A stretch of 21,592 bases of DNA from positions 1 through 21,592 of the IMG/VR virus record IMGVR_UViG_3300018078_000006; one strand, written 5' to 3'. Origin of the DNA: a virus. Below the pieces are notes generated by a model. That model saw nothing but the letters and a program-made list of their open reading frames with translations. It ran no database searches and was not told where the DNA came from. Positions 2,149 through 18,187 of the stretch are shown here, one piece after another (within the stretch, counting starts at the first letter, position 1; the number at the start of each line of letters is the position of its first letter). Position numbers and translations under genes: made by a program.

Positions 2149-2310
2149 ATGAAAAAGAGTCAGCAGCCAGAGGTCAGCGAGGCGCAGCACAAGGCGGCGC
2201 TCGCTCGCATCCTCAAGCTCGAGCGGCGCTTCGACGCCGCGATGGCCCAGCTCGGCGGAGCCGTGAACTTCACGTTCGTCGACCCGACCAACGAGGACGC
2301 CGATGCTTGA
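2149..2310 (+). CDS. Small hypothetical protein (53 aa)
   Basis: This 53-residue protein starts at an ATG with a strong SD. The N-terminus is MKKSQQPEVSEAQHKAALAR, followed by a charged helix to about residue 36 and an acidic tail (VDPTNEDADA). I recognise no family. Its stop lies 8 bases inside the next gene, so the two are likely translated together. The size and helical character would suit a small binding partner or assembly factor, but that is only a guess. Confidence 0.7.
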   Translation: MKKSQQPEVSEAQHKAALARILKLERRFDAAMAQLGGAVNFTFVDPTNEDADA

Positions 2311-3715
2311 GTTCATGCTGATCGACCGGCCGATCCTGTTCCCGAACCGCTGCGCGTTCTGCATCAACACCCGCGGCCCCGTCTTGGACACGATGATCGC
2401 CGACCCGCAGAACCGCCGCTACTACGTCTGCGAGAGCTGCGCGAAGCGGATCGCCCGCGTCTTCGGGTTCATCGAGGGCCCACGGATGGAGGAGCTCTCG
2501 GACGCCGCAACGGGGATCGCGGAGGCTCAGGCTGAGGTTGAGACCCGCAACGGGTGGATCGCTGAGCGGGACGAGCGGATCGCGCAGCTCGAGCAGGAGC
2601 TCGTCATGCGGGTGACGCAGCGCGACGACGCGGTCGACAAGCGTGTCCTGTTGGAGTCGTTGGCGCGGTCGGTTGTGGACACGGCGCAGCAGATGGCCGG
2701 CGCGCTGGCCGAGCAGCTCGAGCCGTCCGCCGACGAGACGGTCGCGCAGCGCGGCGGTCAGGACCTCGTCGACCACGTGAGCGAACTCGTCCGCCGCGCC
2801 TACGCGGAGCTCCCGCCCGGAGAAGGGCCGGCGACGATCACGTTCGACGGCGACAGCTGGCTCGGCGAGCGGGGCGAGGCGATGTACTGGCGGCCGGCGG
2901 ATCTCTCCGAGCCGTGGGATCGTCTCCCCGAGCCGGCGACCGCGACCGAGGTCTCCCTTCGCGAGGAAGCCAAGGAGCAGGTCGGCGTCGGTGTCCTCGA
3001 CGGCCTGCCGACGGACCCCGCGACGGGGATCGCGGCGATCGACACGCTCGAGCGCGTCGGCGACGAGTGGGTGTGCGTGATCGACGGTGCCACCTACGTA
3101 CGGCCTCGTGACTTCTCCGGCCCGTGGGAACCCGCCGCGGAGCCTGCGCCTCTGATGGCGGCTCTCGAATACTCAGGGCCACCGCTTACGCGGGAGACAC
3201 CGAACTTCGGAGCAGCGGCCGCATCCACCGACGGCTTGCCTCCCGGCACTGAGGGGACGGCGATCGACTCGCTCGAGTTCGACAGCAACCGCGACCGCTG
3301 GATGGCCGACGTCGGCGGCGTCACGTACGAGCGGCCGGGCGACCTGTCCGCGCCGTGGAGGCCCGCCGTCTCCGGGCCTCGCAGCGTGTGGGCGCGACCC
3401 GTGGGCGCCGAGAAGACGGGCACGCTCGAGGAGGCTCTCGTCGTGGACCCGGAGCTCGAGTCCGCCGCTCACCGAGGCATTTGGGCACGACCACGCGAGG
3501 AGGACGACGATGGGGCTGAGACACGGGAGCTCGAAGCTGACCCCGGAGCAGACAGCCGAGACCGAGGAGAGGACGGGGGAGCGCTACCTGCGGATTCAGG
3601 AGCAGCCGCAACGGCCGACCCGTCGGCAGGGCCGGCGGAACCGGCGGAGCTCGAACCCGACCTTCGAGACGCGGCTGGACTGGCTGAAGGACCTGATGGC
3701 GGTGAGAGCTCGTGA
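2303..3715 (+). CDS. Zinc-finger, coiled-coil protein with three internal repeats
   Basis: The ORF encodes 470 residues. C17xxC20 and C43xxC46 form a plausible four-cysteine zinc site. A helical, coiled-coil-like stretch covers about 62-140. Three copies of a short domain follow, at about 184-205, 254-275 and 331-352. Each has a D-x-W start and a Y/W-x-RP-x-D-x-S-x-PW end; copies 2 and 3 are also preceded by related GLP...AID-x-LE segments. Two SVWARP/GIWARP-like echoes lie at 361-366 and 392-397. From about residue 402 the chain is acidic, low-complexity, and overlaps an out-of-frame gene at 3510-3752 with much better codon statistics, so the tail may carry little sequence constraint. The start overlaps the previous stop by 8 bp, and the stop forms GTGA with the next GTG. 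I do not recognise the family. The zinc site suggests nucleic-acid or protein binding. Confidence 0.75.
   Translation: MLEFMLIDRPILFPNRCAFCINTRGPVLDTMIADPQNRRYYVCESCAKRIARVFGFIEGPRMEELSDAATGIAEAQAEVETRNGWIAERDERIAQLEQELVMRVTQRDDAVDKRVLLESLARSVVDTAQQMAGALAEQLEPSADETVAQRGGQDLVDHVSELVRRAYAELPPGEGPATITFDGDSWLGERGEAMYWRPADLSEPWDRLPEPATATEVSLREEAKEQVGVGVLDGLPTDPATGIAAIDTLERVGDEWVCVIDGATYVRPRDFSGPWEPAAEPAPLMAALEYSGPPLTRETPNFGAAAASTDGLPPGTEGTAIDSLEFDSNRDRWMADVGGVTYERPGDLSAPWRPAVSGPRSVWARPVGAEKTGTLEEALVVDPELESAAHRGIWARPREEDDDGAETRELEADPGADSRDRGEDGGALPADSGAAATADPSAGPAEPAELEPDLRDAAGLAEGPDGGESS
3497..3504 (+). promoter_or_regulatory. Strong ribosome binding site inside the upstream gene
   Basis: GAGGAGGA ends 5 bases before ATG 3510. 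This SD lies within the 3' part of the 470-residue ORF and is the main reason to accept the nested gene that starts at 3510. Confidence 0.7.
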
Positions 3716-3752
3716 GGCCGCGCACGGAAACGGAGCTCGTGAGGTCGACTGA
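3510..3752 (+). CDS. Basic 80-aa protein nested out of frame
   Basis: The product is 80 residues, rich in Arg and Gln, with a helical C-terminal segment FETRLDWLKDLMAVRAREA (51-69). Over its first 206 bases it overlaps the 2303-3715 ORF in another frame. Counting by hand over the shared 69 codons, about 61 end in G or C in this frame, against about 37 of 68 sense codons in the other. With the strong SD at 3497-3504, this argues that the frame is truly translated. No family is recognised. The basic composition would allow nucleic-acid contact. An alternative is that the long upstream gene really switches into this frame through a +1 shift or a sequence error. Confidence 0.65.
   Translation: MGLRHGSSKLTPEQTAETEERTGERYLRIQEQPQRPTRRQGRRNRRSSNPTFETRLDWLKDLMAVRAREAAHGNGAREVD
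3706..3744 (+). repeat. 12-bp direct repeat spaced by 27 bp, duplicating a GTG start
   Basis: GAGCTCGTGAGG occurs at 3706-3717 and again at 3733-3744. The 27-bp offset is nine codons, so both copies put a GTG in the same frame (3712 and 3739), giving two possible starts for the following gene. Confidence 0.7.
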
Positions 3753-4110
3753 CGAGTGGCCGCCGGCGCGACCGTTCGGCCTCGAGCTGCTCGACGACGA
3801 CGGCCACTTCGGCGCGATCTTCGGCACGCCCGAGGCGCCGGCGCCCGAGCTCGACCTGATCGAGCGGCACGTCGATCGAGCGTTCCATCTTGTGATCCCG
3901 GTCAGCTTCGCGACCGTCGATCAGGCGGACCGCGCCGGCAGGATCCTCGAGATGGCGTTCCGCAAGGTCCGCAACATCGCCAGTGAGCCTGTCCCTGTCC
4001 CCGAGGGCTGCGTGCACGGGCGGACGCGGAGCGTGCGCTTCTCGCGGAGCACGGCTCAGTACAGCGTGTGTGTGGACTGCAACGCGAACCTCGGCGAGGC
4101 GACCGACTGA
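3712..4110 (+). CDS. Hypothetical protein with C-terminal CxH-CxxC motif
   Basis: The product is 132 residues if started at GTG 3712, which forms a GTGA overlap with the 470-residue gene, or 123 residues from GTG 3739, which overlaps the nested gene by 14 bp. The two starts are in a short direct repeat and I cannot choose firmly between them. The middle (about residues 21-90) looks like a compact alpha-beta domain. The C-terminus contains CVH and, about 25 residues later, CVDC, a possible zinc knuckle. The stop overlaps a downstream ATG as TGATG. No family is recognised. Several neighbours also carry small cysteine motifs. Confidence 0.65.
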   Translation: MRPRTETELVRSTDEWPPARPFGLELLDDDGHFGAIFGTPEAPAPELDLIERHVDRAFHLVIPVSFATVDQADRAGRILEMAFRKVRNIASEPVPVPEGCVHGRTRSVRFSRSTAQYSVCVDCNANLGEATD

Positions 4111-4312: not shown

Positions 4313-4645
4313 CCCGTTTCGGCACGGTGCCGGGCGCCGCGAATAGCGGCACGAAGTTCCGGCCCGCAGCCGCGACCGAGCAGCGGCCGGCGTGGGTGTG
4401 CTCGAACGGGCACGAGTGTCGCGTTCGACCGCGACGCGGCCGACTTCTCCCTCGGCTTCGAGTGCGGACGCATATGGGCGCTGCTCAGGGAGGACGCACT
4501 CGCCCAGGACTTCGACGTGCACGTTGAGAACGCCGAGATGATGATGCGAATGGCCGACGCGACCGACCGGGCGTTCCGTGCCGAGGAGACGACGGACGGC
4601 TGGGTGACCGTCTACTTCGACTACGCGGAGTCGGCCGTCGCATGA
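4309..4645 (+). pseudogene. Frameshifted or fused gene (zinc-motif N-terminus plus second frame)
   Basis: Translation starts at ATG 4309 (ATGA overlap) and reads well to WVCSNGHE near 4416. By hand count about 33 of 36 codons end in G/C up to there, but only about 14 of 36 afterwards, to the stop at 4527. From about 4418 the +1-shifted frame takes over (VAFDRDAADFSLGFECGRIW and onward, to YFDYAESAVA), with roughly nine in ten codons ending in G/C, and stops at 4645. That second frame has no ATG, GTG or TTG between the stop at 4310 and GTG 4517. Its stop overlaps the next ATG (ATGA at 4642), as expected of a translated gene. Explanations are a one-base indel (real or sequencing), a deletion that joined two genes, or programmed +1 frameshifting. 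Joined, the product is about 111 residues. No function is recognised. Confidence 0.6.
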
Positions 4646-4869
4646 TCTACGTCGCCCTCGCCGCGCTGCTCGTCGCCCTCGTCTCCGTCTACGCATCACT
4701 CAGCGTTATCCGTGCGATATCACGCGCCCATGACCGCCGCGTCGACGTGCTCCTCGACCGCCTCGCGCACGCCAGCCATAACCCGTGGACGCCGGCGCCC
4801 GCGTCCGCGCCAGAGCCGGAGCCCGAGGGGCTCGAGTACAGCCGCGGCGAGCAAGAGCCGACCTTCTAA
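4642..4869 (+). CDS. Small single-pass membrane protein
   Basis: The 75-residue product begins with one strongly hydrophobic helix (about residues 2-26, IYVALAALLVALVSVYASLS and on). It continues with a charged helix (28-43) and a Pro/Glu-rich tail (48-75). The ATG sits in an ATGA overlap with the preceding frame. One membrane segment with a long polar C-terminus would be compatible with a holin or spanin-like inner-membrane protein, but there is no endolysin beside it and no specific motif, so I leave it as a membrane protein of unknown role. Confidence 0.7.
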   Translation: MIYVALAALLVALVSVYASLSVIRAISRAHDRRVDVLLDRLAHASHNPWTPAPASAPEPEPEGLEYSRGEQEPTF

Positions 4870-6972: not shown

Positions 6973-7442
6973 CGCTCTACAACCAGTTCCCCACGGACGC
7001 GCACCGTCGCGTCGCCGGCAACCTGACGCAGCCGCGCACCGTCGCCGCGTTGGCGCGCGCGCTCGACGACGACCCGTACGTGCCCTTGGGTCTCGGCGAC
7101 GAGCCGATCCTCGAGGCGATGCTGGGGACGCTGCTCGAGATCGGCGACGTCGTCAACCTCGGCAAGCTGCAAACCGTTAACGAATTGGCTCTGGCGCCGC
7201 TTGTGCATCCGCAGGCGATCACCCTGCACGAGGAGAAGGCGGCGATCCTCCGCGAGCGCGCCGAGGCGCAACCTAGGCGCTACCTAGGTGACGGCGACCA
7301 GTGGATCCTCAGCGAGCAGGGGCTCGCGAAGCTGAAGGGGCCGGCGCCACCGGCACAGATCCCCGCACCGCCGCCCGCCGAGGCTGAGCCTGCGCCGGTG
7401 GAGCTCGGCCGGTTGCGCGGCTGGCTGAGGAGGCACCGATGA
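6969..7442 (+). CDS. Winged-helix-like protein
   Basis: The product has 157 residues, from a GTG in a GTGA overlap with the portal stop. The first 125 residues look like a winged helix-turn-helix: AHRRVAGNLTQPRTVAALAR (11-30) as the first helices, ILEAMLGTLLEIGDVVNLGK (47-66) as the recognition region and first wing strand, and WILSEQGLAKL (112-122) as the final strand and helix. A Pro/Ala-rich linker (125-144) leads to a basic end, RLRGWLRRHR. Such folds usually bind DNA, and sitting directly behind the portal it could be a regulator or a virion protein that touches packaged DNA. Two ACCTAGG elements 11 bp apart lie within its coding sequence. It ends in ATGA with the next gene. Confidence 0.6.
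   Translation: MTLYNQFPTDAHRRVAGNLTQPRTVAALARALDDDPYVPLGLGDEPILEAMLGTLLEIGDVVNLGKLQTVNELALAPLVHPQAITLHEEKAAILRERAEAQPRRYLGDGDQWILSEQGLAKLKGPAPPAQIPAPPPAEAEPAPVELGRLRGWLRRHR
7271..7288 (+). repeat. Two ACCTAGG elements with 11-bp spacing
   Basis: ACCTAGG at 7271-7277 recurs at 7282-7288. The same CCTAGG core with the same 11-bp period appears in three copies in the intergenic region at 10377-10409. It lies inside a coding sequence, so codon constraint could also explain it. Confidence 0.5.
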
Positions 7443-7957
7443 GCGACTACGCGATCCAGCTCCCCGCGGTTAACCCCGGGCTAACCATGCGAGACCTGCT
7501 CGAGGTCGTGAAGGGGAAGCTCGCCGAGCTCGGCCTCGAGATGGCCGGCTTCTCGAACGCCCAAGAGCTCGAGGTTCTCGATTCGGTGTTCGGGGATCAC
7601 GCCTCGATCAACCTCAACGCCGCCCCGACCTATCTCGCGCTGACCACGAGTGCCGTCGGCGAGACCGATACCGGCGCGTCGCTCGTCGAGGCCGCGTACA
7701 CCGGGTACGCCCGCAAGAGCATCGCCGCCGCCGACATGAGCGCGGCCTCGGGCGGCTCGAAGACGAACTCGGCGCTGCTGACGTTCGCGGACTGCACTGC
7801 CGGCTCGAGCGTGGTGATCGGCTGGGCGGTCTGCACAACCTCGGGCACCGGCACCGGCGCCGTGATCGTGTTCGGCACCTGTACCAGCGTGACGATCTCG
7901 CCGACTCAGATGCCCGCCCGGGTGCAGCCGTCCGGGCTGACTGTGACCCTCGACTGA
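7439..7957 (+). CDS. Probable small virion (decoration/fibre-type) protein
   Basis: The product has 172 residues. A helical N-terminus (about 17-45) precedes a beta-rich domain with the pattern PTYLALTTSAVGETDTGASLVEA (about 62-84), then YTGYARKS, and TFADCTAGSSVVIGWAVC ending in a strand LTVTLD. This resembles the common small phage proteins that begin 'LYLALTT...' and are annotated as tail-fibre or capsid-decoration proteins; that likeness is from memory of the pattern, not a search. It would sit on the outside of the particle. It overlaps the previous gene by ATGA. The following gene starts 11 bases after its stop, with a GGAG between. Confidence 0.6.
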   Translation: MSDYAIQLPAVNPGLTMRDLLEVVKGKLAELGLEMAGFSNAQELEVLDSVFGDHASINLNAAPTYLALTTSAVGETDTGASLVEAAYTGYARKSIAAADMSAASGGSKTNSALLTFADCTAGSSVVIGWAVCTTSGTGTGAVIVFGTCTSVTISPTQMPARVQPSGLTVTLD

Positions 7958-7967
7958 TGGAGACCTG

Positions 7968-9185
7968 ATGAGACGCACTCTCGTTCTTCTTGCCCTGGCC
8001 GCGACAGCGGCCTTTTTTGTGCTCGCGCTGCCCGCGGCGGCCACTCATGGGCAGCCGCACATCACGATCACCGGCGCAAGCGAGACCGGCTTCGACGTCG
8101 CGGTCTCGGAGGCCCTATGCGGCAGCAACTACCAAGTCGATGTTCGGGTCGCGGAGACCGGCGAGCTCCTTGCGACGCAGCAGGTCTCTACGAACGTGTG
8201 CCCACCGCCTCCACCGCCACCACCGCCGCCGCCGCCCGCGGTGTGCGACATCGAAGTCGCGGCCGGCGCGAGCATCCAGGCGGGCGTCGACGCGGCCGGC
8301 CCGCTCGACGGCGCCAAGGTGTGCGTCCACTACGCGACCTACAACCAGCAGATCCGCTGCGACGGAACCGACGGCGGAGCACCAGGCGTCAACACGGTTC
8401 TGATGGGCTACCCGGGCGAGCCTAAGCCGGTGCTGACCGGCACGTTCGACGGCATCGTTCGGATCGCCTGCTCGAACTGGCGGCTCGAGGGGTTCGACAT
8501 CGCCGGGCCGTCCGGGGTCGGCAAGACGAACATCTACGGGGTCTCCGGGGCGTTCGTGGAGATCGTCCGCAACAAGATCCACGACTCGGTTTGTCAGGGC
8601 GTCTCAAGTGACGCTACGGCGACCGACTACCTGTTCGACTCGAACGAGGTCTACCGCAACGGTGTGACCCACGCCTGCGACCAGCAGGCTCACGGCATCT
8701 ACTTCCGCGGCGACCGATGCACGATCGTCAACAACCTGATCCGTAACAACGAGGACTATGGGATCCAGCGCTACCCGTCCGGCAAGGACTGCCTGATCGC
8801 CTACAACACGATCGTCGGCAACGGGTTCGGCGACAACGGCAACAAGTCGGGGATCGTCCTTGGCGGCTCGGGCTCCATGACCGGCAACAAGATCATCAGC
8901 AACGTGATCTCGGGGAACGCCGCGTACGGGATCCACCGCTCGGGCTCAAACGGCTCCTGTGACATCCACGGGAACATGGGCGTCAACCCGTCCGGCCTCG
9001 TCGAGAGCGGATTCCCTTCGGGGTGCGTCGGTGTGAACAGCGCCGTCAATCCGCTGCTCGATGCGACCTGGCGCCTGATGGCGGGCAGCCCGGCGATCGA
9101 CGCTGGGGATCCCGCGTTTGCGCCGCCGACTGACTTCGACGGCGTACCGAGAAGTACCCCCGACATAGGAGCGTACGAGCGATGA
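7968..9185 (+). CDS. Exported, cysteine-rich parallel beta-helix protein
   Basis: The product has 405 residues. Residues 1-25 are a textbook Sec signal peptide: RR at 2-3, hydrophobic LVLLALAATAAFFVLALP (5-22), then AAA before a likely cut near 25. A short beta domain (30-77) leads to C78, twelve prolines (79-90) and C93. A right-handed beta-helix follows (about 100-370), with repeated N/D-rich turns of the type NNLIRNNEDYGI and NVISGNAAYGI. The end, SPAIDAGDP (374-382) ... DIGAYER, is the closing motif seen in secreted bacterial beta-helix proteins. Twelve cysteines, an even number, fit disulfides outside the cytoplasm. GGAG 5 bases upstream supports this start. Polysaccharide binding or cleavage is plausible from the fold, but I cannot identify catalytic residues. 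A signal peptide is unusual for a virion protein. Confidence 0.8.
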   Translation: MRRTLVLLALAATAAFFVLALPAAATHGQPHITITGASETGFDVAVSEALCGSNYQVDVRVAETGELLATQQVSTNVCPPPPPPPPPPPPAVCDIEVAAGASIQAGVDAAGPLDGAKVCVHYATYNQQIRCDGTDGGAPGVNTVLMGYPGEPKPVLTGTFDGIVRIACSNWRLEGFDIAGPSGVGKTNIYGVSGAFVEIVRNKIHDSVCQGVSSDATATDYLFDSNEVYRNGVTHACDQQAHGIYFRGDRCTIVNNLIRNNEDYGIQRYPSGKDCLIAYNTIVGNGFGDNGNKSGIVLGGSGSMTGNKIISNVISGNAAYGIHRSGSNGSCDIHGNMGVNPSGLVESGFPSGCVGVNSAVNPLLDATWRLMAGSPAIDAGDPAFAPPTDFDGVPRSTPDIGAYER

Positions 9186-9418
9186 ACTTCGAGCAGATGA
9201 TCGACGCGGGGCTCGTGTCTAAGGACGGGTGGCCCGACACGGCCTGGTTCGTCAGGGACGGCAAGATCGAGAAGGTGGAGGGCTGGCTGAGGATCCAGCA
9301 GCTTCTCCGCGAGGACGCCAGCTACCCGGTCCAGATGCACGGCACCCTCGAAGACGCGGAGGAGTACGTCCGCATGACCTATCACCCCGTCGAATGGCAC
9401 GAGGCGAACCGTGGCTAG
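9182..9418 (+). CDS. Small acidic hypothetical protein (78 aa)
   Basis: The 78-residue product overlaps the beta-helix gene by ATGA and the next gene by 8 bp. It has aromatic and charged residues spread throughout (for example GWPDTAWFVRDGKIEKVEGW, 16-35) and a helical end (LEDAEEYVRMTYHPVEWHEA, about 56-75). No family is recognised. Tight coupling to the exported beta-helix protein suggests it may be made in step with it. Confidence 0.65.
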   Translation: MNFEQMIDAGLVSKDGWPDTAWFVRDGKIEKVEGWLRIQQLLREDASYPVQMHGTLEDAEEYVRMTYHPVEWHEANRG

Positions 9419-10887: not shown

Positions 10888-10902
10888 AAAGGACTCTCTC
10901 TC

Positions 10903-11244
10903 ATGGGCAACTGCACAGTCGCGATCCGCCGGAAGCACAGCGGGCGCACCAACGGTTTCAGCACCATCGTCGACATCAACCTCTCCGCGTCGTACGCGAC
11001 CGGCGGCGACACCGTCCCGCTCGCGGCCTTGGGGCTCGGGATGGGCCGCTTGACGTCGCTGATGCTGCAGAGCGGCGTTAGCTCGCCGGGAGGCCACGCG
11101 CTCGAGGTCGTCAACGGCGCGACCGAGGACGTCGCCCCGAAGATCCGGGCGCGCGACGTCGCCTCGGGGGCCGAGCTCACGAACGCGACCGACCAGTCCG
11201 CGCAGTCGATCCGCGCCGAGGCGTACTTCTCGGCCCTGCCATGA
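10903..11244 (+). CDS. Probable small virion protein (113 aa)
   Basis: The product has 113 residues. AAGGA upstream, about 8 bases away, supports ATG 10903. The sequence has beta strands and the phrase SASYATGGDTVPLAALGLGM (28-47), which recurs as a theme (Y-x-GG...LGL) in small head proteins of several phages. It ends in an ATGA overlap with the scaffold gene. It is probably a head decoration or accessory protein made together with scaffold and capsid protein. The assignment rests on pattern and position. Confidence 0.6.
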   Translation: MGNCTVAIRRKHSGRTNGFSTIVDINLSASYATGGDTVPLAALGLGMGRLTSLMLQSGVSSPGGHALEVVNGATEDVAPKIRARDVASGAELTNATDQSAQSIRAEAYFSALP

Positions 11245-12026
11245 CCGACCGTCAGCTGACAGTCAGCGCGCCGGTCTCCGGGCCTCTCGCCGAGGCGACG
11301 CGGTTCCTCCGCTTCGAGTTCCCCGAGGGAGCCGCCGCCGGCGAGCCAGCCGGAGACCCTGCAGGCGAACCGGCCGGCGAACCAGCATGGACGGGCCCGT
11401 CTCAGGAGGACTGGACGTCGGTGCAGGAGACGATGGCGCTCGTCCGCGAGGCGATGCAGCCACGCGAGCCCGACCCCGCCCACCAGCCCGAGGCCGGGCA
11501 GCAGCCGCTCGAGATCCCCGACCCCTATGCCGACCCGGAAGGGTTCGCGAACTGGCTCGACGAGCGCACCGATCAGCGGATCGCCCCGTACTCCGAGTTC
11601 GTGCAGCGGCAGGAGTACCAGGAGGGCGAGCAGCGGGGCATGGACATCATCGCCGACTTGGAGTCCGGCGGCCAAGAGCTGATCGGCAAGGCCGGCGAGG
11701 GGCAGGAGCTCGAAATGGACTCCCGCAAGGTCGCCTACGAGCTCGCCCGCGTGTTCTTCCCCGAGGCGCAGGCGAAGCACGGTCCCGGCAACCGCGCCGC
11801 CGAGGCCGCCTTGGAGCGCGCCGTCGGCGTCGTCCGGCAGCTCGAGGGCGTGATCGGCGAGGCGTACCACCAGCGGAAGATCAACGAGCTCCGCACGCTC
11901 GGGCAGGCGCCCCGCGACCTTGGCGGGCAGGGGCCGGCCGGTAGCGAGGAGCGGATCGCCCGCGGCGGCGACGAGCTCGACCTGGCCCGCCGGTTCGTCG
12001 CGGAGCGCGGCATCCCCACCGTCTAA
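11241..12026 (+). CDS. Capsid scaffolding protein (putative)
   Basis: The product has 261 residues, acidic and mostly helical, directly before the major capsid gene: the usual place and character of a scaffold that guides shell assembly and then leaves. A flexible N-terminal part carries the tetrapeptide AGEP/AGDP four times (about 33-49). Helices cover about 54-75 and 105-210. The C-terminal region (230-261) is charged, with a short helix DELDLARRFVAERG, as in scaffolds that bind the coat protein through their C-terminus. Sequence similarity among scaffolds is low, so this call depends on position and composition. Confidence 0.75.
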   Translation: MTDRQLTVSAPVSGPLAEATRFLRFEFPEGAAAGEPAGDPAGEPAGEPAWTGPSQEDWTSVQETMALVREAMQPREPDPAHQPEAGQQPLEIPDPYADPEGFANWLDERTDQRIAPYSEFVQRQEYQEGEQRGMDIIADLESGGQELIGKAGEGQELEMDSRKVAYELARVFFPEAQAKHGPGNRAAEAALERAVGVVRQLEGVIGEAYHQRKINELRTLGQAPRDLGGQGPAGSEERIARGGDELDLARRFVAERGIPTV

Positions 12027-12071
12027 CCCTTTTCCCTCTCAACCTCTACCTCAACTCGAACCTGAAAGAGC

Positions 12072-12077
12072 AGGAGA
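12072..12077 (+). promoter_or_regulatory. Ribosome binding site of the capsid gene
   Basis: AGGAGA lies just before ATG 12079, and a longer purine tract (GAAAGAGCAGGAGAAA) covers the whole leader end. It selects ATG 12079 over an upstream start of the same frame at 11920 inside the scaffold gene. Confidence 0.65.
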
Positions 12078-12078
12078 A

Positions 12079-13419
12079 ATGACCGACATCACAAGAGCAG
12101 CATGGGCCGACTACCTGTTCGAGCAGCAGGGCGTCGTCGTCGAGCTGTACCCCTCCGAAGCGCCGTTCCTGGCCGAGCTCTCAGGCTTCGACGCGAAAGC
12201 TCGGGCAACGGACCGGCACTCAAAGGTCCGGCGGATCTCGGAGGAAATGGACGGAGGCCGCGACCTGTTCGTCGGCGGCCAGCAGGTCCGTCACACGCTC
12301 AAGATGGCCGGGCTCCCGGGCGGCGGAAACCCGACCGAGAACTCGACGTGGAACCAGCCGCACGCGCCCGACACGGAGAAGGCGCTGATCAACCTCGTCC
12401 GGTTCCTGATCCCGTTCGCGATCACCGTCGATCTCGAGCGCGACTCGATGAACAACAGCAACGCCGAGGCCGTGGCGGAGAACATCAAGGACGCCCGGAT
12501 CGCGATGGCGAAGCTGCAGAACCTCGAGTACATCGGGGACGGCACCGGCCTTAACGGTGTCATTACCGACGGCGCAACCTCCCTAACCACGACGATTTCT
12601 GCCGCAACCTTCAACCCTGACGTGCTTTTGCCGGGCACTGTGTGGGACGTGAGGACGCGGGCGTCGGGTGCCGATCCTGGGCAGGGGAACCGCCGCCGCA
12701 TCGTCTCGGTCAACGAGACGACCCGCGTCGTGACGTGGGACACCGCCCAGCAGGCGTCGGATGGCGGCTCGGGCTCGATCGTCCATACGTCGGCCGACGG
12801 CATCTACGTGCCCGGCCTCGGTAACGCGGCCGGTACGGGTGGCCCGTTCAACACCGCCGGCACCCAGGCGGCGCAGGGGCTCGAGCAGGCCGCCGCGATC
12901 ACCGGCACGTTCGAGGGCGTCGACAAAGCGGTGTTCCCGCAGTGGCAGGGAACCGACGGAAGGGTCGGCGACACGACCGTCGTCCCGCTGTCGCAGCAGG
13001 TCCTCGACACCGCCGTCCGGCGAGGACGCCGGTCAGGCATCGGCGCGTGGGACTACGGTCTCGGCGACCCCGCCGCGATCGACGTTTTCAAGCAGGGGCT
13101 TTACAGCTTGGGGCGTTATGAGTTGGAAGTCACAACTCTCAAGAGCGGTTTCAGCGGCATCGTGTACGACGGCTCCGACCGTCCGTTCCCGATGATCAAG
13201 GAGCCGATGCACGCCAAGTCGGCCGTCAAGCTGATCCCGATGGAGGCCTTCATCCTCTACGGGGACAAGGTCGGCCCGAAGTTCCTCGACGACGACGGGT
13301 CGATGTGGCGGCGCTTCAACCGAGCACTCCCCAAGGAGGCCGATCTTCTCGACCGGACTCAGCTCGGCGTGAAGGCGTGCAACCAGCTCGTCTTCCTCGG
13401 GAACCTGGCGGTCACGTAA
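12079..13419 (+). CDS. Major capsid protein
   Basis: The product has 446 residues, in the range for an HK97-fold coat with an inserted domain. An N-terminal helix with FEQQGVVVELYPSEAPFLAEL (about 14-34) is followed by the extended E-loop-like region, including GLPGGGNPTENSTWNQPHAP (about 81-100). A long spine-like helix comes next, MNNSNAEAVAENIKDARIAM (about 124-143). A Thr/Gly-rich insertion spans about 165-270, followed by a C-terminal P/A-domain region ending KACNQLVFLGNLAVT. Position after scaffold and before head-completion genes agrees. Similarity to a named coat protein was not checked. Confidence 0.85.
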   Translation: MTDITRAAWADYLFEQQGVVVELYPSEAPFLAELSGFDAKARATDRHSKVRRISEEMDGGRDLFVGGQQVRHTLKMAGLPGGGNPTENSTWNQPHAPDTEKALINLVRFLIPFAITVDLERDSMNNSNAEAVAENIKDARIAMAKLQNLEYIGDGTGLNGVITDGATSLTTTISAATFNPDVLLPGTVWDVRTRASGADPGQGNRRRIVSVNETTRVVTWDTAQQASDGGSGSIVHTSADGIYVPGLGNAAGTGGPFNTAGTQAAQGLEQAAAITGTFEGVDKAVFPQWQGTDGRVGDTTVVPLSQQVLDTAVRRGRRSGIGAWDYGLGDPAAIDVFKQGLYSLGRYELEVTTLKSGFSGIVYDGSDRPFPMIKEPMHAKSAVKLIPMEAFILYGDKVGPKFLDDDGSMWRRFNRALPKEADLLDRTQLGVKACNQLVFLGNLAVT

Positions 13420-13444
13420 GCCGGGCGAGAGAGGCCTTGGGCCC

Positions 13445-13918
13445 ATGAGCGGCCTGGTCTACAGCAAGACCGACAGCGGTCTGCTCGTCGCCGAGAACGC
13501 GCACTCGGTAGACGAGCAGGCCGTCGCTCGGTCTTTGCGTGAGTACGACCCGGACCTGCGGCTCGTCCCGCAGGTCGTCGTCGGCGACCGTGTCGGCTAC
13601 CGCGTCTACCGCTATGCGGGCCCGGACAGGCCGGCGGAGTTCCTGCTCTATTGGGGCGACGCCTCGACCGGGGAGCCGTGGCCTCTGAGTTCACGCCTGC
13701 TCGACAAGGTCCGCGAGCAGGACAAGAACACCCGAGGCACCTACCTCGACGAGGACGCCCGGGAGAAGCTGCGACGCGAGGAGCTCGAGCGCGCGCACGC
13801 GAGCGCGACCGACAGCGTGATCGCCGACACGCTGAAGTCGGGGCGGACGGTGCTCCGCCGCGGCGTCGGCCTGCGGATGGCCCGGGACAAGCGCAGGGCC
13901 CGAGGCGAGAAGACGTGA
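13445..13918 (+). CDS. Hypothetical head-region protein (157 aa)
   Basis: The product has 157 residues and follows the capsid gene by 25 bases, with a purine-rich GAGAGAGG upstream of its ATG. The first 95 residues form an alpha-beta domain (AVARSLREYDPDLRLVPQVV, about 27-46, then GYRVYRYAGPDRPAEFLLYW, about 51-70). The rest is a strongly charged helix (about 102-157), ending in basic residues. Genes in this place often encode head-completion or internal proteins, but no function is recognised. It overlaps the next gene as TGATG. Confidence 0.65.
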   Translation: MSGLVYSKTDSGLLVAENAHSVDEQAVARSLREYDPDLRLVPQVVVGDRVGYRVYRYAGPDRPAEFLLYWGDASTGEPWPLSSRLLDKVREQDKNTRGTYLDEDAREKLRREELERAHASATDSVIADTLKSGRTVLRRGVGLRMARDKRRARGEKT

Positions 13919-14860: not shown

Positions 14861-15565
14861 ATGCCGACGGTGAGCCCCGACCAGCAGGACAGGCAGATGG
14901 TTCACGCCCTCGTGCAGCGGAAGCGCGGCCGGCAGCCCGCCCGGAAGCTGACGGCGCCGCAGCAGGAGCTCGCCGAGGCGCTCGCCGCGCTCGCACCCGC
15001 CCGGCCGATCGGAAGCAAGGCCGCCACGCTGCCGCGCGGCAACCGGATGATGCTCGACGAGGCGACCGGAGGCGACGGCGAGCTTCGTCGCTCCTACCAG
15101 CGGCAACGGCAGATTTGGGCGGTCCTCGGCAGGCAGCATCCGGGGAAGGTGATGCCCGCCCCGAGCCTGACCCGCAAGGGGAAGGACGCGACGTCTTGGG
15201 GGTACTACCGGCAGGGGAAGGACCCGGTCGGCTGGATCGATCTGCCGCAGGATCTCGCCCGGAAGCTCGTCAGTCCCGTGGACGCGCCGGACGAGTACGG
15301 CCAGAGCACTCAGCGCCACTACAAGTCGGCCGCCCTGCAAACGCTGATCCATGAATGGACGCACGCCCTGCAGAACCCGGCGCTCGCCTACGACCCCGGC
15401 CTCGCTGAGGGCGGAGCCGACATCTACGGGCAAGTGATGCGGCCGATGGTCGCCCGCGAGCTCGGGATGCCCGGGCAGACAACGCCGCTCACATACCCAG
15501 GGCAGGCGCAGCGGACGCTGGACAGGAAGGGCTTGCGGTGGGCTCTACGGGGGCAGTTCCGGTGA
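14861..15565 (+). CDS. Zinc-metallopeptidase-like protein
   Basis: The product has 234 residues. HEWTH at 164-168 is a zinc-peptidase HExxH motif in the usual helix (LQTLIHEWTHALQ). LAEGGADIYG (181-190) supplies a candidate third ligand, E183, 15 residues after H168, with D187 at the position often occupied in E-x-x-x-D helices. The N-terminal 75 residues are basic and Gln-rich and look unstructured. No signal peptide or membrane segment is present. Between the adaptor and nozzle genes it may be a virion-linked protease acting on a phage protein or on the host surface. The ATG directly follows the previous stop, and the gene ends in GTGA with the next. The substrate is unknown. Confidence 0.7.
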   Translation: MPTVSPDQQDRQMVHALVQRKRGRQPARKLTAPQQELAEALAALAPARPIGSKAATLPRGNRMMLDEATGGDGELRRSYQRQRQIWAVLGRQHPGKVMPAPSLTRKGKDATSWGYYRQGKDPVGWIDLPQDLARKLVSPVDAPDEYGQSTQRHYKSAALQTLIHEWTHALQNPALAYDPGLAEGGADIYGQVMRPMVARELGMPGQTTPLTYPGQAQRTLDRKGLRWALRGQFR

Positions 15566-16971
15566 CCGTCATGGATCTCCGCGATTTCGGCGGCGGCCTA
15601 AACCTTCGCGACTCGGCGGAGCAGCTCGCCCTGAACGAGACCCCCGACGCCGTCAACGCGACGCTTGCCCGCCGCGGCGCCGCTCTCGTGCGGAACGGAT
15701 GCGCTCTCGCCGTCACCCTGCCGGCCGGGACCGCCTCCTACCTGTACTACAGCCCCGCCCTGGATAGGTGGTATTGCCAGGTCGGCACGGAGCTTTACCG
15801 GCGCCCCGGTGACCTGTCGGGCTCGTGGACGGACATCACGACCGTCTCGTTGACCACGGTGGCGCCGGTGGCGATGTGCGACTTCCAAGACGTCGTCGTG
15901 ATCTGCCACCCGGTAGACGGGGTCTACACCCACGATGGCGGTACGGGCGTAATCACGAACCGCTCGACGACCGCGAAGGGCTACGCCATCGCCGTGTTCA
16001 AGAACCGCGTGTGGGTCGCTGACGGGAAGCGTCTCTGGTATTCCGATCTCGGCAGCTCGACCGTCTACACGACCGCCACCGGGTTTGTGGACGTGCGCGA
16101 GAAGGACGACGAGGACATAACTGCTCTCGCCGGTTCTGCCGGTGCGCTGCTGGCGTTCAAAAAGCGGAGCGCTTACCGGGTCACGGACGCGGCTACGGGC
16201 GCGTATCAGACGATCGACTGGTCGAACGGGTGCGTCGGCCCGCGTGCGATTACCAGCCTTCGCGGGAAAGCCTACGGCTGGGGCACAGACAGCATCTACT
16301 CGTGGGACGGCGTCGGGGCAGGCAAGGAGATCGGCGACAAGGTGACTCCACTGTTCGAGTGCGTCACTGGCGACCCCGAGCTGTACTACGACAATGTCAG
16401 CGTCGCCGCTTACAACGGCCGCGTCTTCTTCGCCTATCCGCAGCTCGGGCAGACGTCCGCCGGTGCCGCTCAGAGCTTGACCGACCTGCTCGAGCTCGAG
16501 CCGCTGTCCGGCGCGATCATGGTTCACAGGTTGGCGTCGGACGAGCAGTTCGCGGCGCTCGTGGCGAAGGGTCGCCGGCTGTTCTCCGCGTTGTCGTCGT
16601 CGGCGAACCTCTACGAGCTGTTCTCGGGCACGCCGGGGGCCGACAACAGCGTGAACTACACCAGCTACTACAAGACGCCACCGCTGAATCTCGGGAAGCT
16701 CCACCAGCTGCAGCGCGTCCGCGTGTACGGGAAGGCTCACGCCGCCGGGACGAGCACGAAGCAGCTCCGCACCTATAAGGACTGGTCACCGTCCGTGGCG
16801 GACACGTTCGACATCACTACGCCGATCGAAACGTCGGATGGCGAGGAGGCGGCCGACCTGCAAGGGCTCGGCCATGCGGAGGCGTTCCAGCTCGAGTTTC
16901 GTGTCACGGGCGGCACCGGCAGCGCCGAGCTCGACCGTCTCCTGCTGGACCTGACCCCGGTGGCCCGCTGA
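15562..16971 (+). CDS. Tail nozzle / tubular protein, beta-propeller type (putative)
   Basis: The product is 469 residues from GTG 15562, chosen because it forms a GTGA overlap; GTG 15538 and ATG 15571 are alternatives. The opening DLRDFGGGLNLRDSAEQLAL with a following N and R-x-G pattern (about 5-45) is characteristic of podoviral nozzle proteins. Repeated beta blades follow, each with a short aromatic-Asp phrase: LYYSPALDRWYCQVG, VVVICHPVDGVYTHDGG, NRVWVADGKRLWYSDLG, GKAYGWGTDSIYSWDG. The C-terminus is a beta domain (about 375-469). It would extend the adaptor into a short tail tube and keep DNA inside. This is the main evidence for a short-tailed phage. Confidence 0.68.
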   Translation: MTVMDLRDFGGGLNLRDSAEQLALNETPDAVNATLARRGAALVRNGCALAVTLPAGTASYLYYSPALDRWYCQVGTELYRRPGDLSGSWTDITTVSLTTVAPVAMCDFQDVVVICHPVDGVYTHDGGTGVITNRSTTAKGYAIAVFKNRVWVADGKRLWYSDLGSSTVYTTATGFVDVREKDDEDITALAGSAGALLAFKKRSAYRVTDAATGAYQTIDWSNGCVGPRAITSLRGKAYGWGTDSIYSWDGVGAGKEIGDKVTPLFECVTGDPELYYDNVSVAAYNGRVFFAYPQLGQTSAGAAQSLTDLLELEPLSGAIMVHRLASDEQFAALVAKGRRLFSALSSSANLYELFSGTPGADNSVNYTSYYKTPPLNLGKLHQLQRVRVYGKAHAAGTSTKQLRTYKDWSPSVADTFDITTPIETSDGEEAADLQGLGHAEAFQLEFRVTGGTGSAELDRLLLDLTPVAR

Positions 16972-17405
16972 TGCCGTCGCCTCGCCTCCCCCGCATCCTG
17001 ACCCCGGAGTCGTTCGCGTTGCTCGTCGACGCGATCGAGTTCGGGGAGCCTCCGCGATATGTCGGACAGCCCGGACAGCCCGCGTTCGCGGGTGCGTGGG
17101 TGAACTTTGACGGTGCCCCACAAGGAACGCGCAGGAGTGTGGGCTTCTGGAAGGACGCGCTCGGGATGGTGCACTTGGAAGGGCTTTGCAAGGACGGCTC
17201 GGGGGCGATCTTTACCCTGCCTGACGGATACAGGCCGCTCAGATCGGACGCGGTGTTTACTTGCGCCTTTTGGGACGGCACGGTCGTCAAGTGCGTAGTC
17301 GTCGTGTCCTCAGCCGGGACGGTGACCCTGTCTCAAACCGATGGTGGAGGTTCGGGCGCCGGGAAGGGCCCTTGGCTCGACGGGATTTACTTCCGGGCCG
17401 CCTGA
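16971..17405 (+). CDS. Small tail-tip / receptor-binding-like protein
   Basis: The product has 144 residues and begins in TGATG with the previous stop. GFWKDALGMVHLEGL (58-72) and IFTLPDGYRP (80-89) match the phrase found in C-terminal domains of many phage tail fibres and tip proteins ('F-KD--G-VHL-G ... LP-GYRP'). The last residues, LDGIYFRAA, close the domain. A glycine-rich linker lies at 125-132. It may be a short tail fibre or an attachment subunit that contacts the host. I have no basis for naming its receptor. Confidence 0.55.
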   Translation: MPSPRLPRILTPESFALLVDAIEFGEPPRYVGQPGQPAFAGAWVNFDGAPQGTRRSVGFWKDALGMVHLEGLCKDGSGAIFTLPDGYRPLRSDAVFTCAFWDGTVVKCVVVVSSAGTVTLSQTDGGGSGAGKGPWLDGIYFRAA

Positions 17406-18187
17406 TGCCTCGCCCTCGCCCCCGTCCCGTTCGTCGTGGCCTCAACGTGGGCTACCACGGCGCCCAGGCTGATCCCGGCGACGGGTATCAGCCGCGCCCT
17501 GTCGCGCCCGGCCGCGCCGGTGTCCCCGCTCCTGCCCCGGCAGCCGCTCCCGGCGCGGCCCCGGCGAACCCGTACGACTTCTCGGTGGACCCGATCCTGC
17601 AGCGGATCAAGGCGTTCGGGGAGCAGAGTGTCCGCGACGCCGAGGCCGAAGCGCTCCGCTACCGCAAGCAGCTCGCGATCGACTACGGCGACGCCGATCT
17701 CGCCCGTTCTCTCGGGTTGGACGACGCGACGATCGCCGCCGCCGGCTCGAACGCGCTCTCCACCCGGGCGAAGCTGGGGAGGGAGAGGGTTGCGCGGCCG
17801 AAGGCGCTCGACGAGCAGCTCAACGACCGGGACAACCTGTTCTACAGCGGCGCGCGGATCAAGCAGCAGGGGGACCTCTCGACCGCGCTGCTCGACCAGG
17901 AGAACACCGCGCGCGGGGCCGTGCAGGGCCGCTTCTCTGACATCGAGAGCGCGCTGACGAGCGCGCGGAGCGCCGCCGCTGAGCGGAACATCGGCGGCGA
18001 GGAGGACGCCGCCGACAGGCTGCGAGAGAGGCTCGGAGATCGCCCCTACGGCCCTGCCGCGCCCGGCGCGCTCGGGCCGGCGTCACGCGCGGCCGGACGC
18101 ATCCGTGCACCGCTGCCCGCCGCACGCCGCGCCGCCGGCCGCATCCGCCCACCCGCCGCGATCGCGCGCAGAGGGATCGGGTACTGA
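17405..18187 (+). CDS. Helical virion protein, possible ejection protein (260 aa)
   Basis: The product has 260 residues and starts in a TGATG overlap; the frame is open further upstream, but that part lies in the preceding gene. A basic, Pro-rich N-terminus (PRPRPRPVRRGLNVGYHGAQ) and an Ala/Pro linker lead to a helical core (about 60-210). The core includes LRYRKQLAIDYGDADLARSL (about 82-101) and LDEQLNDRDNLFYSGARIKQ (about 138-157), a phrase I have seen in structural regions of other phages. The tail is Arg/Ala/Pro-rich. It is likely packaged in the virion or tail and released with DNA; this is inferred from position after the nozzle and helical content. Confidence 0.58.
   Translation: MPRPRPRPVRRGLNVGYHGAQADPGDGYQPRPVAPGRAGVPAPAPAAAPGAAPANPYDFSVDPILQRIKAFGEQSVRDAEAEALRYRKQLAIDYGDADLARSLGLDDATIAAAGSNALSTRAKLGRERVARPKALDEQLNDRDNLFYSGARIKQQGDLSTALLDQENTARGAVQGRFSDIESALTSARSAAAERNIGGEEDAADRLRERLGDRPYGPAAPGALGPASRAAGRIRAPLPAARRAAGRIRPPAAIARRGIGY

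Follow-up and report, generated by a model that had tools for sequence, protein, structure and literature searches.

A gene for a cysteine-rich right-handed beta-helix protein with a putative Sec-type signal peptide lies within the virion operon of a soil-type bacterial virus, whose record is a single contig of 21,592 bases (hereafter the window, meaning the whole stretch of DNA that was analysed). On balance, we favor the explanation that this is a moron-type accessory gene of the late operon, the Sec-exported product of which would act on extracellular polysaccharide and thereby ease the spread of progeny. The best reading is that the gene is of the bacterial secreted-protein type and not a tailspike gene. 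The virus itself is probably a short-tailed phage of a high-GC actinobacterial host; its TerL and portal proteins resemble those of Arthrobacter and Microbacterium phages.

Genomic position and architecture of the beta-helix protein

The window starts with the genes for the small and the large terminase, followed later by the portal gene, a gp80-like fibre gene and several small genes including the beta-helix gene, after which a scaffold-like gene, the gene for the major capsid protein (MCP), an adaptor/nozzle-like gene and further virion-type genes are found. The first-pass annotation of this DNA had placed the beta-helix protein inside a virion operon, which is borne out by the identification of TerL, MCP and portal and by the gp80-like fibre gene upstream of it. 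The region contains the following features:

7439..7957, plus strand: gp80-like (podophage GP4 fibre I) neighbor (PF23140, 1.8e-10)
7959..7962, plus strand: ribosome-binding site GGAG, 5 nt ahead of the ATG of the beta-helix gene
7968..9185, plus strand: exported-type beta-helix gene, 405 aa (ORF and translation, Pfam/NCBIfam domains, homolog at L101:1776-3017)
7968..8042, plus strand: putative Sec-type signal peptide, codons 1-25 (charge, hydrophobicity and AXA pattern; cut likely after A25)
7997..8018, plus strand: perfect 6-bp all-GC hairpin followed by TTTTTT, terminator-like, inside the signal-peptide codons
8043..8201, plus strand: small beta-rich N-terminal domain, residues 26-78, with C51 and C78 (secondary structure of a low-confidence model)
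8202..8237, plus strand: 12-proline linker, residues 79-90, between C78 and C93 (translation)
8250..8975, plus strand: right-handed parallel beta-helix, residues ~95-336 (PF13229/PF05048, models, fold matches)
9063..9179, plus strand: choice-of-anchor Q domain, residues 366-404 (NF041518, 2.7e-12)
9182..9418, plus strand: 78-aa ORF, the start of which overlaps the beta-helix stop (ATGA)

The beta-helix ORF begins 10 bases downstream of the gp80-like gene, with the capsid genes on its other side, and has no start earlier in frame than the ATG at 7968. The gp80-like gene is conserved ahead of this slot in the relatives described below, with a weaker PF23140 match in L008 and L094, and the 78-aa ORF is likely to be translationally coupled to the beta-helix gene. 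The codon use of the beta-helix gene matches that of the phage well, so that its composition shows no foreign origin. No sigma-70-like promoter was found for the gene, and the only terminator-like hairpin lies inside and not after it. An assembly chimera was rejected due to the tight SD/ATGA junctions, the matching codon use and the presence of a homolog with the same architecture in two further contigs.

The N-terminus of the protein reads MRRTLVLLALAATAAFFVLALPAAA and continues with THG behind the putative cut. It comprises an RR n-region, an 18-residue hydrophobic stretch, a proline at position -4 and A-A-A before the putative cut, contains neither a lipobox nor a twin-arginine motif, and looks Sec-type by this pattern. 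The 18-residue stretch, located within the first 30 residues, has a mean KD of 2.57, a value reached when the protein sequence was shuffled in 6 out of 20,000 cases, and the hydropathy peak in the remainder is 1.08. When one rule was applied to all window genes of at least 80 aa, only the beta-helix gene showed the signal-peptide pattern. The twelve cysteines (positions 51, 78, 93, 119, 131, 168, 209, 237, 251, 275, 331, and 353) correspond to 3.0% of the protein compared to 0.5% in the other window genes (Fisher p = 1e-5), and a high cysteine content is usual for proteins folding outside the cytoplasm. The first-pass annotation had named a signal peptide of residues 1-25, which agrees with the RR, hydrophobic and AAA pattern found only here in the window, as well as twelve cysteines in total and a 12-proline linker between C78 and C93, both of which are confirmed in the translation (the linker as P79-P90). 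Its suggestion that the protein looks built to leave the host cell is supported by the Sec-type N-terminus and by the homolog's own signal peptide.

The beta-helix, also seen in the first pass, is recovered by Pfam as Beta_helix (2.2e-8) and NosD (1.6e-9), and with 34.3 bits against a gathering threshold of 25.9 for PF13229 the protein belongs to the right-handed beta-helix proteins. Its “SPAIDAGDP...DIGAYE” ending is a choice-of-anchor Q domain (NCBIfam NF041518) with 46.7 bits against a cut-off of 25. As its name and definition tell, this domain normally precedes a surface anchor; no C-terminal sorting or anchor signal is present behind it here, the protein ending one residue later. A NosD copper protein was rejected, since PF05048 passes its cut-off but TIGR04247 is absent from the NCBIfam matches and the window is without nos genes. 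An exported endolysin was rejected as well, as neither Pfam nor NCBIfam revealed a peptidoglycan-cleaving domain.

Homologs and related phages

In direct searches the beta-helix protein matched none of 50,697 phage records and nothing in close IMG/VR viral contigs or in genome contigs, and single-sequence scans with portal and MCP were likewise without a match. A profile search of genome contigs for a cellular homolog was also without a match, one of its two patterns sitting on the proline run, and an apparent match in a relative (G005, 22449-22628) was dismissed as chance driven by that run. Weak plasmid matches were obtained to beta-helix proteins of cellular organisms, namely Azospirillum, Deinococcus, and a haloarchaeon. 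The Azospirillum protein also has a Q domain, and its gene lies between genes for an O-antigen ligase and a methyltransferase in a surface-polysaccharide cluster. The Q domain and these bacterial and archaeal matches support the earlier suggestion of a bacterial secreted-protein origin, at least in the sense that the protein appears to be of such a type.

Since no phage homolog was found directly, the kin of the phage were gathered via TerL, portal and MCP: a TerL profile led to contig L008, and once L008 was included, profiles of MCP and portal brought in about a dozen contigs. These share TerL, portal, MCP and other genes with the window, portal and MCP mostly with 45-65% identity. In this kin, a cassette of variable content, made up of gp80-like and small decoration-type genes, fills the portal-to-capsid interval, and in the 10 related contigs compared none has a signal-peptide beta-helix gene in this slot. 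However, one relative, represented by L101 (IMGVR_UViG_3300018081_000279) and L105 (3300018075_000061; a contig of this phage type from a second sample, 96.8% identical in DNA), has a homolog with 31% identity along the whole length directly after TerL:

L101, 1776-3017: homolog of 413 aa, GGAG before its ATG

The database search proposed in the first pass thus yielded no direct phage match, and what it did bring was this homolog, reached via the kin, and the weak cellular matches. The homolog consists of the signal peptide MTFRRAAALIVLLAAGFVTAVALG, a Thr-rich stretch, PPPPP, the beta-helix and the ending ...AGSPAIGHSDP...GAYER, which scores 22.7 against NF041518, just under the cut-off of 25. 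It shares with the window protein the signal peptide, a Thr/Pro linker at the corresponding position, a cysteine-containing beta-helix, the kind of ending and a location in the virion operon of a related phage; it differs in lying between TerL and a zinc-ribbon gene and not after the fibre gene, in having 6 instead of 12 cysteines, and in lacking a hairpin in the signal-peptide codons. Phage homologs starting downstream of residue 25 would have spoken against export, according to the first pass, and this sole phage homolog has a signal peptide of its own. When L101 and L105 are compared, 12 of the changes in its gene are synonymous and 5 nonsynonymous (dN/dS about 0.15), and the amino acids of the signal peptide are all unchanged. 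The homologous gene is under purifying selection, and its export signal is kept. Hence, selection preserves the gene together with its export signal without confining it to a single site, and its occurrence at another place in a related virus makes it look like a movable accessory gene. Its presence between conserved genes is patchy, as for moron-type genes: it occurs in two phage lineages at two sites and is absent from ten comparable slots.

Several further genes of these phages were observed. In L008, LAGLIDADG-like and HNH-like homing-endonuclease frames (15332-16738 and 17354-17833, minus strand) flank the gp80-like gene and lie in the slot that in the window contains the beta-helix gene. 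At 14861-15565 of the window an ORF with a HEWTH (HEXXH) motif, possibly a zinc metallopeptidase in the virion operon, has no Pfam match; it looks like another accessory insert because its flanking genes adjoin without it in L088 and L100. A small ORF with an N-terminal membrane helix, which looks like a membrane anchor, is conserved in several relatives, where it lies between portal and the zinc-ribbon gene (window 4642-4869; L008 12616-12846; L101 about 3629-3862). The zinc-ribbon-like gene (window 2303-3715), with an N-terminal CxxC...CxxC part and weak NrdR ribbon likeness, is conserved directly after TerL in the relatives covering that region. A related phage encodes, outside its portal-to-capsid slot, a further protein that looks exported (L110 8335-8751; G005 27335-27751); it is CarboxypepD_reg-like, with 138 aa and five cysteines.

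Possible function and alternative explanations

Structure prediction, also proposed in the first pass, returned a beta-helix in models that are weak: built from three sequences, they have a mean pLDDT of 46 for the window protein and 54 for the homolog, the best part of the homolog's helix being near 70-84. The model of the window protein is too poor for cysteine pairing or active-site mapping. The homolog model matches alginate lyase 6kfn (Z 22.9), pectate lyase Pel9A (Z 22.5), PL6 lyases, RbmB (Z 19.5) and the adhesin PfbA (Z 19.4), among many beta-helices, and polysaccharide lyases, secreted ones among them, and epimerases dominate its matches; these PL6/PL9-type matches come from the homolog, the window protein's own model being weaker, and the Z-scores reflect the common fold and not the function. 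A sequence match to a characterized or solved lyase was not found, and among PDB entries of beta-helix polysaccharide enzymes there was just a weak AlgE4 match (E 0.06). Action on extracellular polysaccharide is likely in view of the fold matches, but it is a guess from the modeled fold.

In the explanation that we favor, the beta-helix gene would be translated together with the virion genes in the late operon, and its product would go to the Sec translocon, be cut after A25 and be freed ahead of lysis to reach the wall or the cell's surroundings, where disulfides can form. There, with the proline linker as a spacer, the beta-helix would bind and probably cut or modify an extracellular polysaccharide, which would help the progeny to be released and to spread. 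In favor of this are the signal peptide unique in the window, the cysteine enrichment, the same build with a signal peptide of its own at a second site in a related phage, the unchanged signal peptide and low dN/dS of this homolog, the absence from the portal-to-capsid slot of ten contigs, the relatives' spikes without a signal peptide, the Q domain and the homologs of cellular secreted type, the predominance of lyases and epimerases among the fold matches, and the precedent of Lys44 for exported phage enzymes. Against this explanation stand the weak models, the missing sequence match to a characterized lyase, the phage-like codon use, and a terminator-like hairpin inside the gene, which fits poorly with strong expression unless it is overridden by translation.

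This hairpin (GGCCGC-GACA-GCGGCC, 7997-8012, -13.7 kcal/mol) is followed by TTTTTT at 8013-8018, the only plus-strand run of at least five T in the window, which has no other perfect hairpin of terminator-like form followed by T6. The run consists of two adjacent TTT codons, and window-wide TTC is used 165 and TTT 13 times. When all genes were recoded with the window codon use, such a site arose somewhere in 3 out of 3,000 trials and once within these codons, figures that serve as a guide only, as the pattern was picked after being seen. None of the relatives has a hairpin with T6 at this place. It could be a translation-dependent attenuator or chance. We consider it improbable that a secreted free polysaccharide-active beta-helix is expressed, together with the capsid genes, under the gate of a terminator overridden by signal-peptide translation; if true, infected cells would release, before lysis, a tool that diffuses apart from the particle and opens the surrounding matrix or alters nearby cells.

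Next to the exported glycan-active accessory protein, which we rank first, an exported non-enzyme comes second, although we regard it as unlikely. Such a lectin- or adhesin-like coat on cell or wall would block further phages (superinfection exclusion) or adsorption of progeny to debris. The export signal, the proline linker, the beta-helix surface adhesin PfbA among the fold matches and the fact that no catalytic site is assigned fit with it, but Pfam and NCBIfam revealed no wall-binding or anchoring motif and most fold matches are polysaccharide-active enzymes. Still less likely is cargo for the infected or lysogenic host, e.g., an auxiliary metabolic gene for degradation of plant or microbial polysaccharides for nutrition. 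The bacterial secreted-protein build, the patchy presence and the Azospirillum homolog in a surface-polysaccharide cluster would agree with this, but the gene lies inside the late virion operon and is therefore probably expressed shortly before death, and the window gives no sign of lysogeny. Least probable is a virion part, i.e., a tailspike or capsid decoration assembled in the cell with a hydrophobic N-terminus that is inefficient or serves membrane contact: beta-helix spikes are common in phages and the gene directly follows the gp80-like fibre gene among small decoration-type genes, but the signal peptide is present at both placements, 12 cysteines would need folding in the reducing cytoplasm, and Pfam and PHROG gave low-complexity matches only and no head- or tail-binding domain ahead of the helix. 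Due to this lack and to the Sec-type N-terminus, membership in the tailspikes was rejected.

That ordinary phage beta-helix spikes lack export signals, as the first pass had stated, also holds for the relatives. One of them is Shocker, an isolated Microbacterium phage whose portal and nozzle proteins are related; its gp28, a beta-helix glycoside hydrolase, begins with MPILRWDGAQY and has no signal peptide. A spike of the closer relative G009 (L111 about 10900-13600, minus strand) has long collagen-like GXY repeats and then a beta-helix, likewise without a signal peptide. Ordinary spike and exported-type beta-helix are thus different things in this phage group.

Comparison with known systems

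Beta-helix proteins of phages are usually classed as tailspikes, and Sec-exported ones would be mislabeled as spikes by annotation and would escape virion proteomics. A Sec-exported late-operon beta-helix at different places in two related phages would suggest that phages possess a class of proteins that are “public goods” or modify the cell surface. Exported phage proteins are already known; the present combination of features was not found described in the literature searched, and literature searches on soil viruses brought up no direct match for phage glycan enzymes that are exported. The endolysin Lys44 of phage fOg44 is exported via a cleaved Sec signal peptide like that proposed here, but is a muralytic enzyme (PMC6116005). 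The gp216 of phage pf16 is a beta-helix protein predicted to be extracellular and proposed as exopolysaccharide depolymerase, but it belongs to a T4-like myophage and its location is only predicted (PMC5587285). With the bacterial choice-of-anchor Q right-handed beta-helix proteins (NF041518) the window protein has the C-terminal Q domain and the beta-helix in common, but it is phage-borne and without a C-terminal anchor. The beta-helix polysaccharide enzymes alginate lyase 6kfn, Pel9A, RbmB and Pantoea WceF may share the fold of the weakly modeled homolog; WceF is bacterial, folds like a tailspike and acts on exopolysaccharide by modifying it (PMC7949094). However, beyond weak AlgE4 likeness no sequence similarity of the window protein to PDB entries of this kind was found, and WceF is a trimer. 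The phage tailspikes (P22-like, Shocker gp28, the collagen-like spike of G009) have the beta-helix and the virion operon in common with the window protein, which differs from them in lacking a head-binding domain and in having a signal peptide and a high cysteine content.
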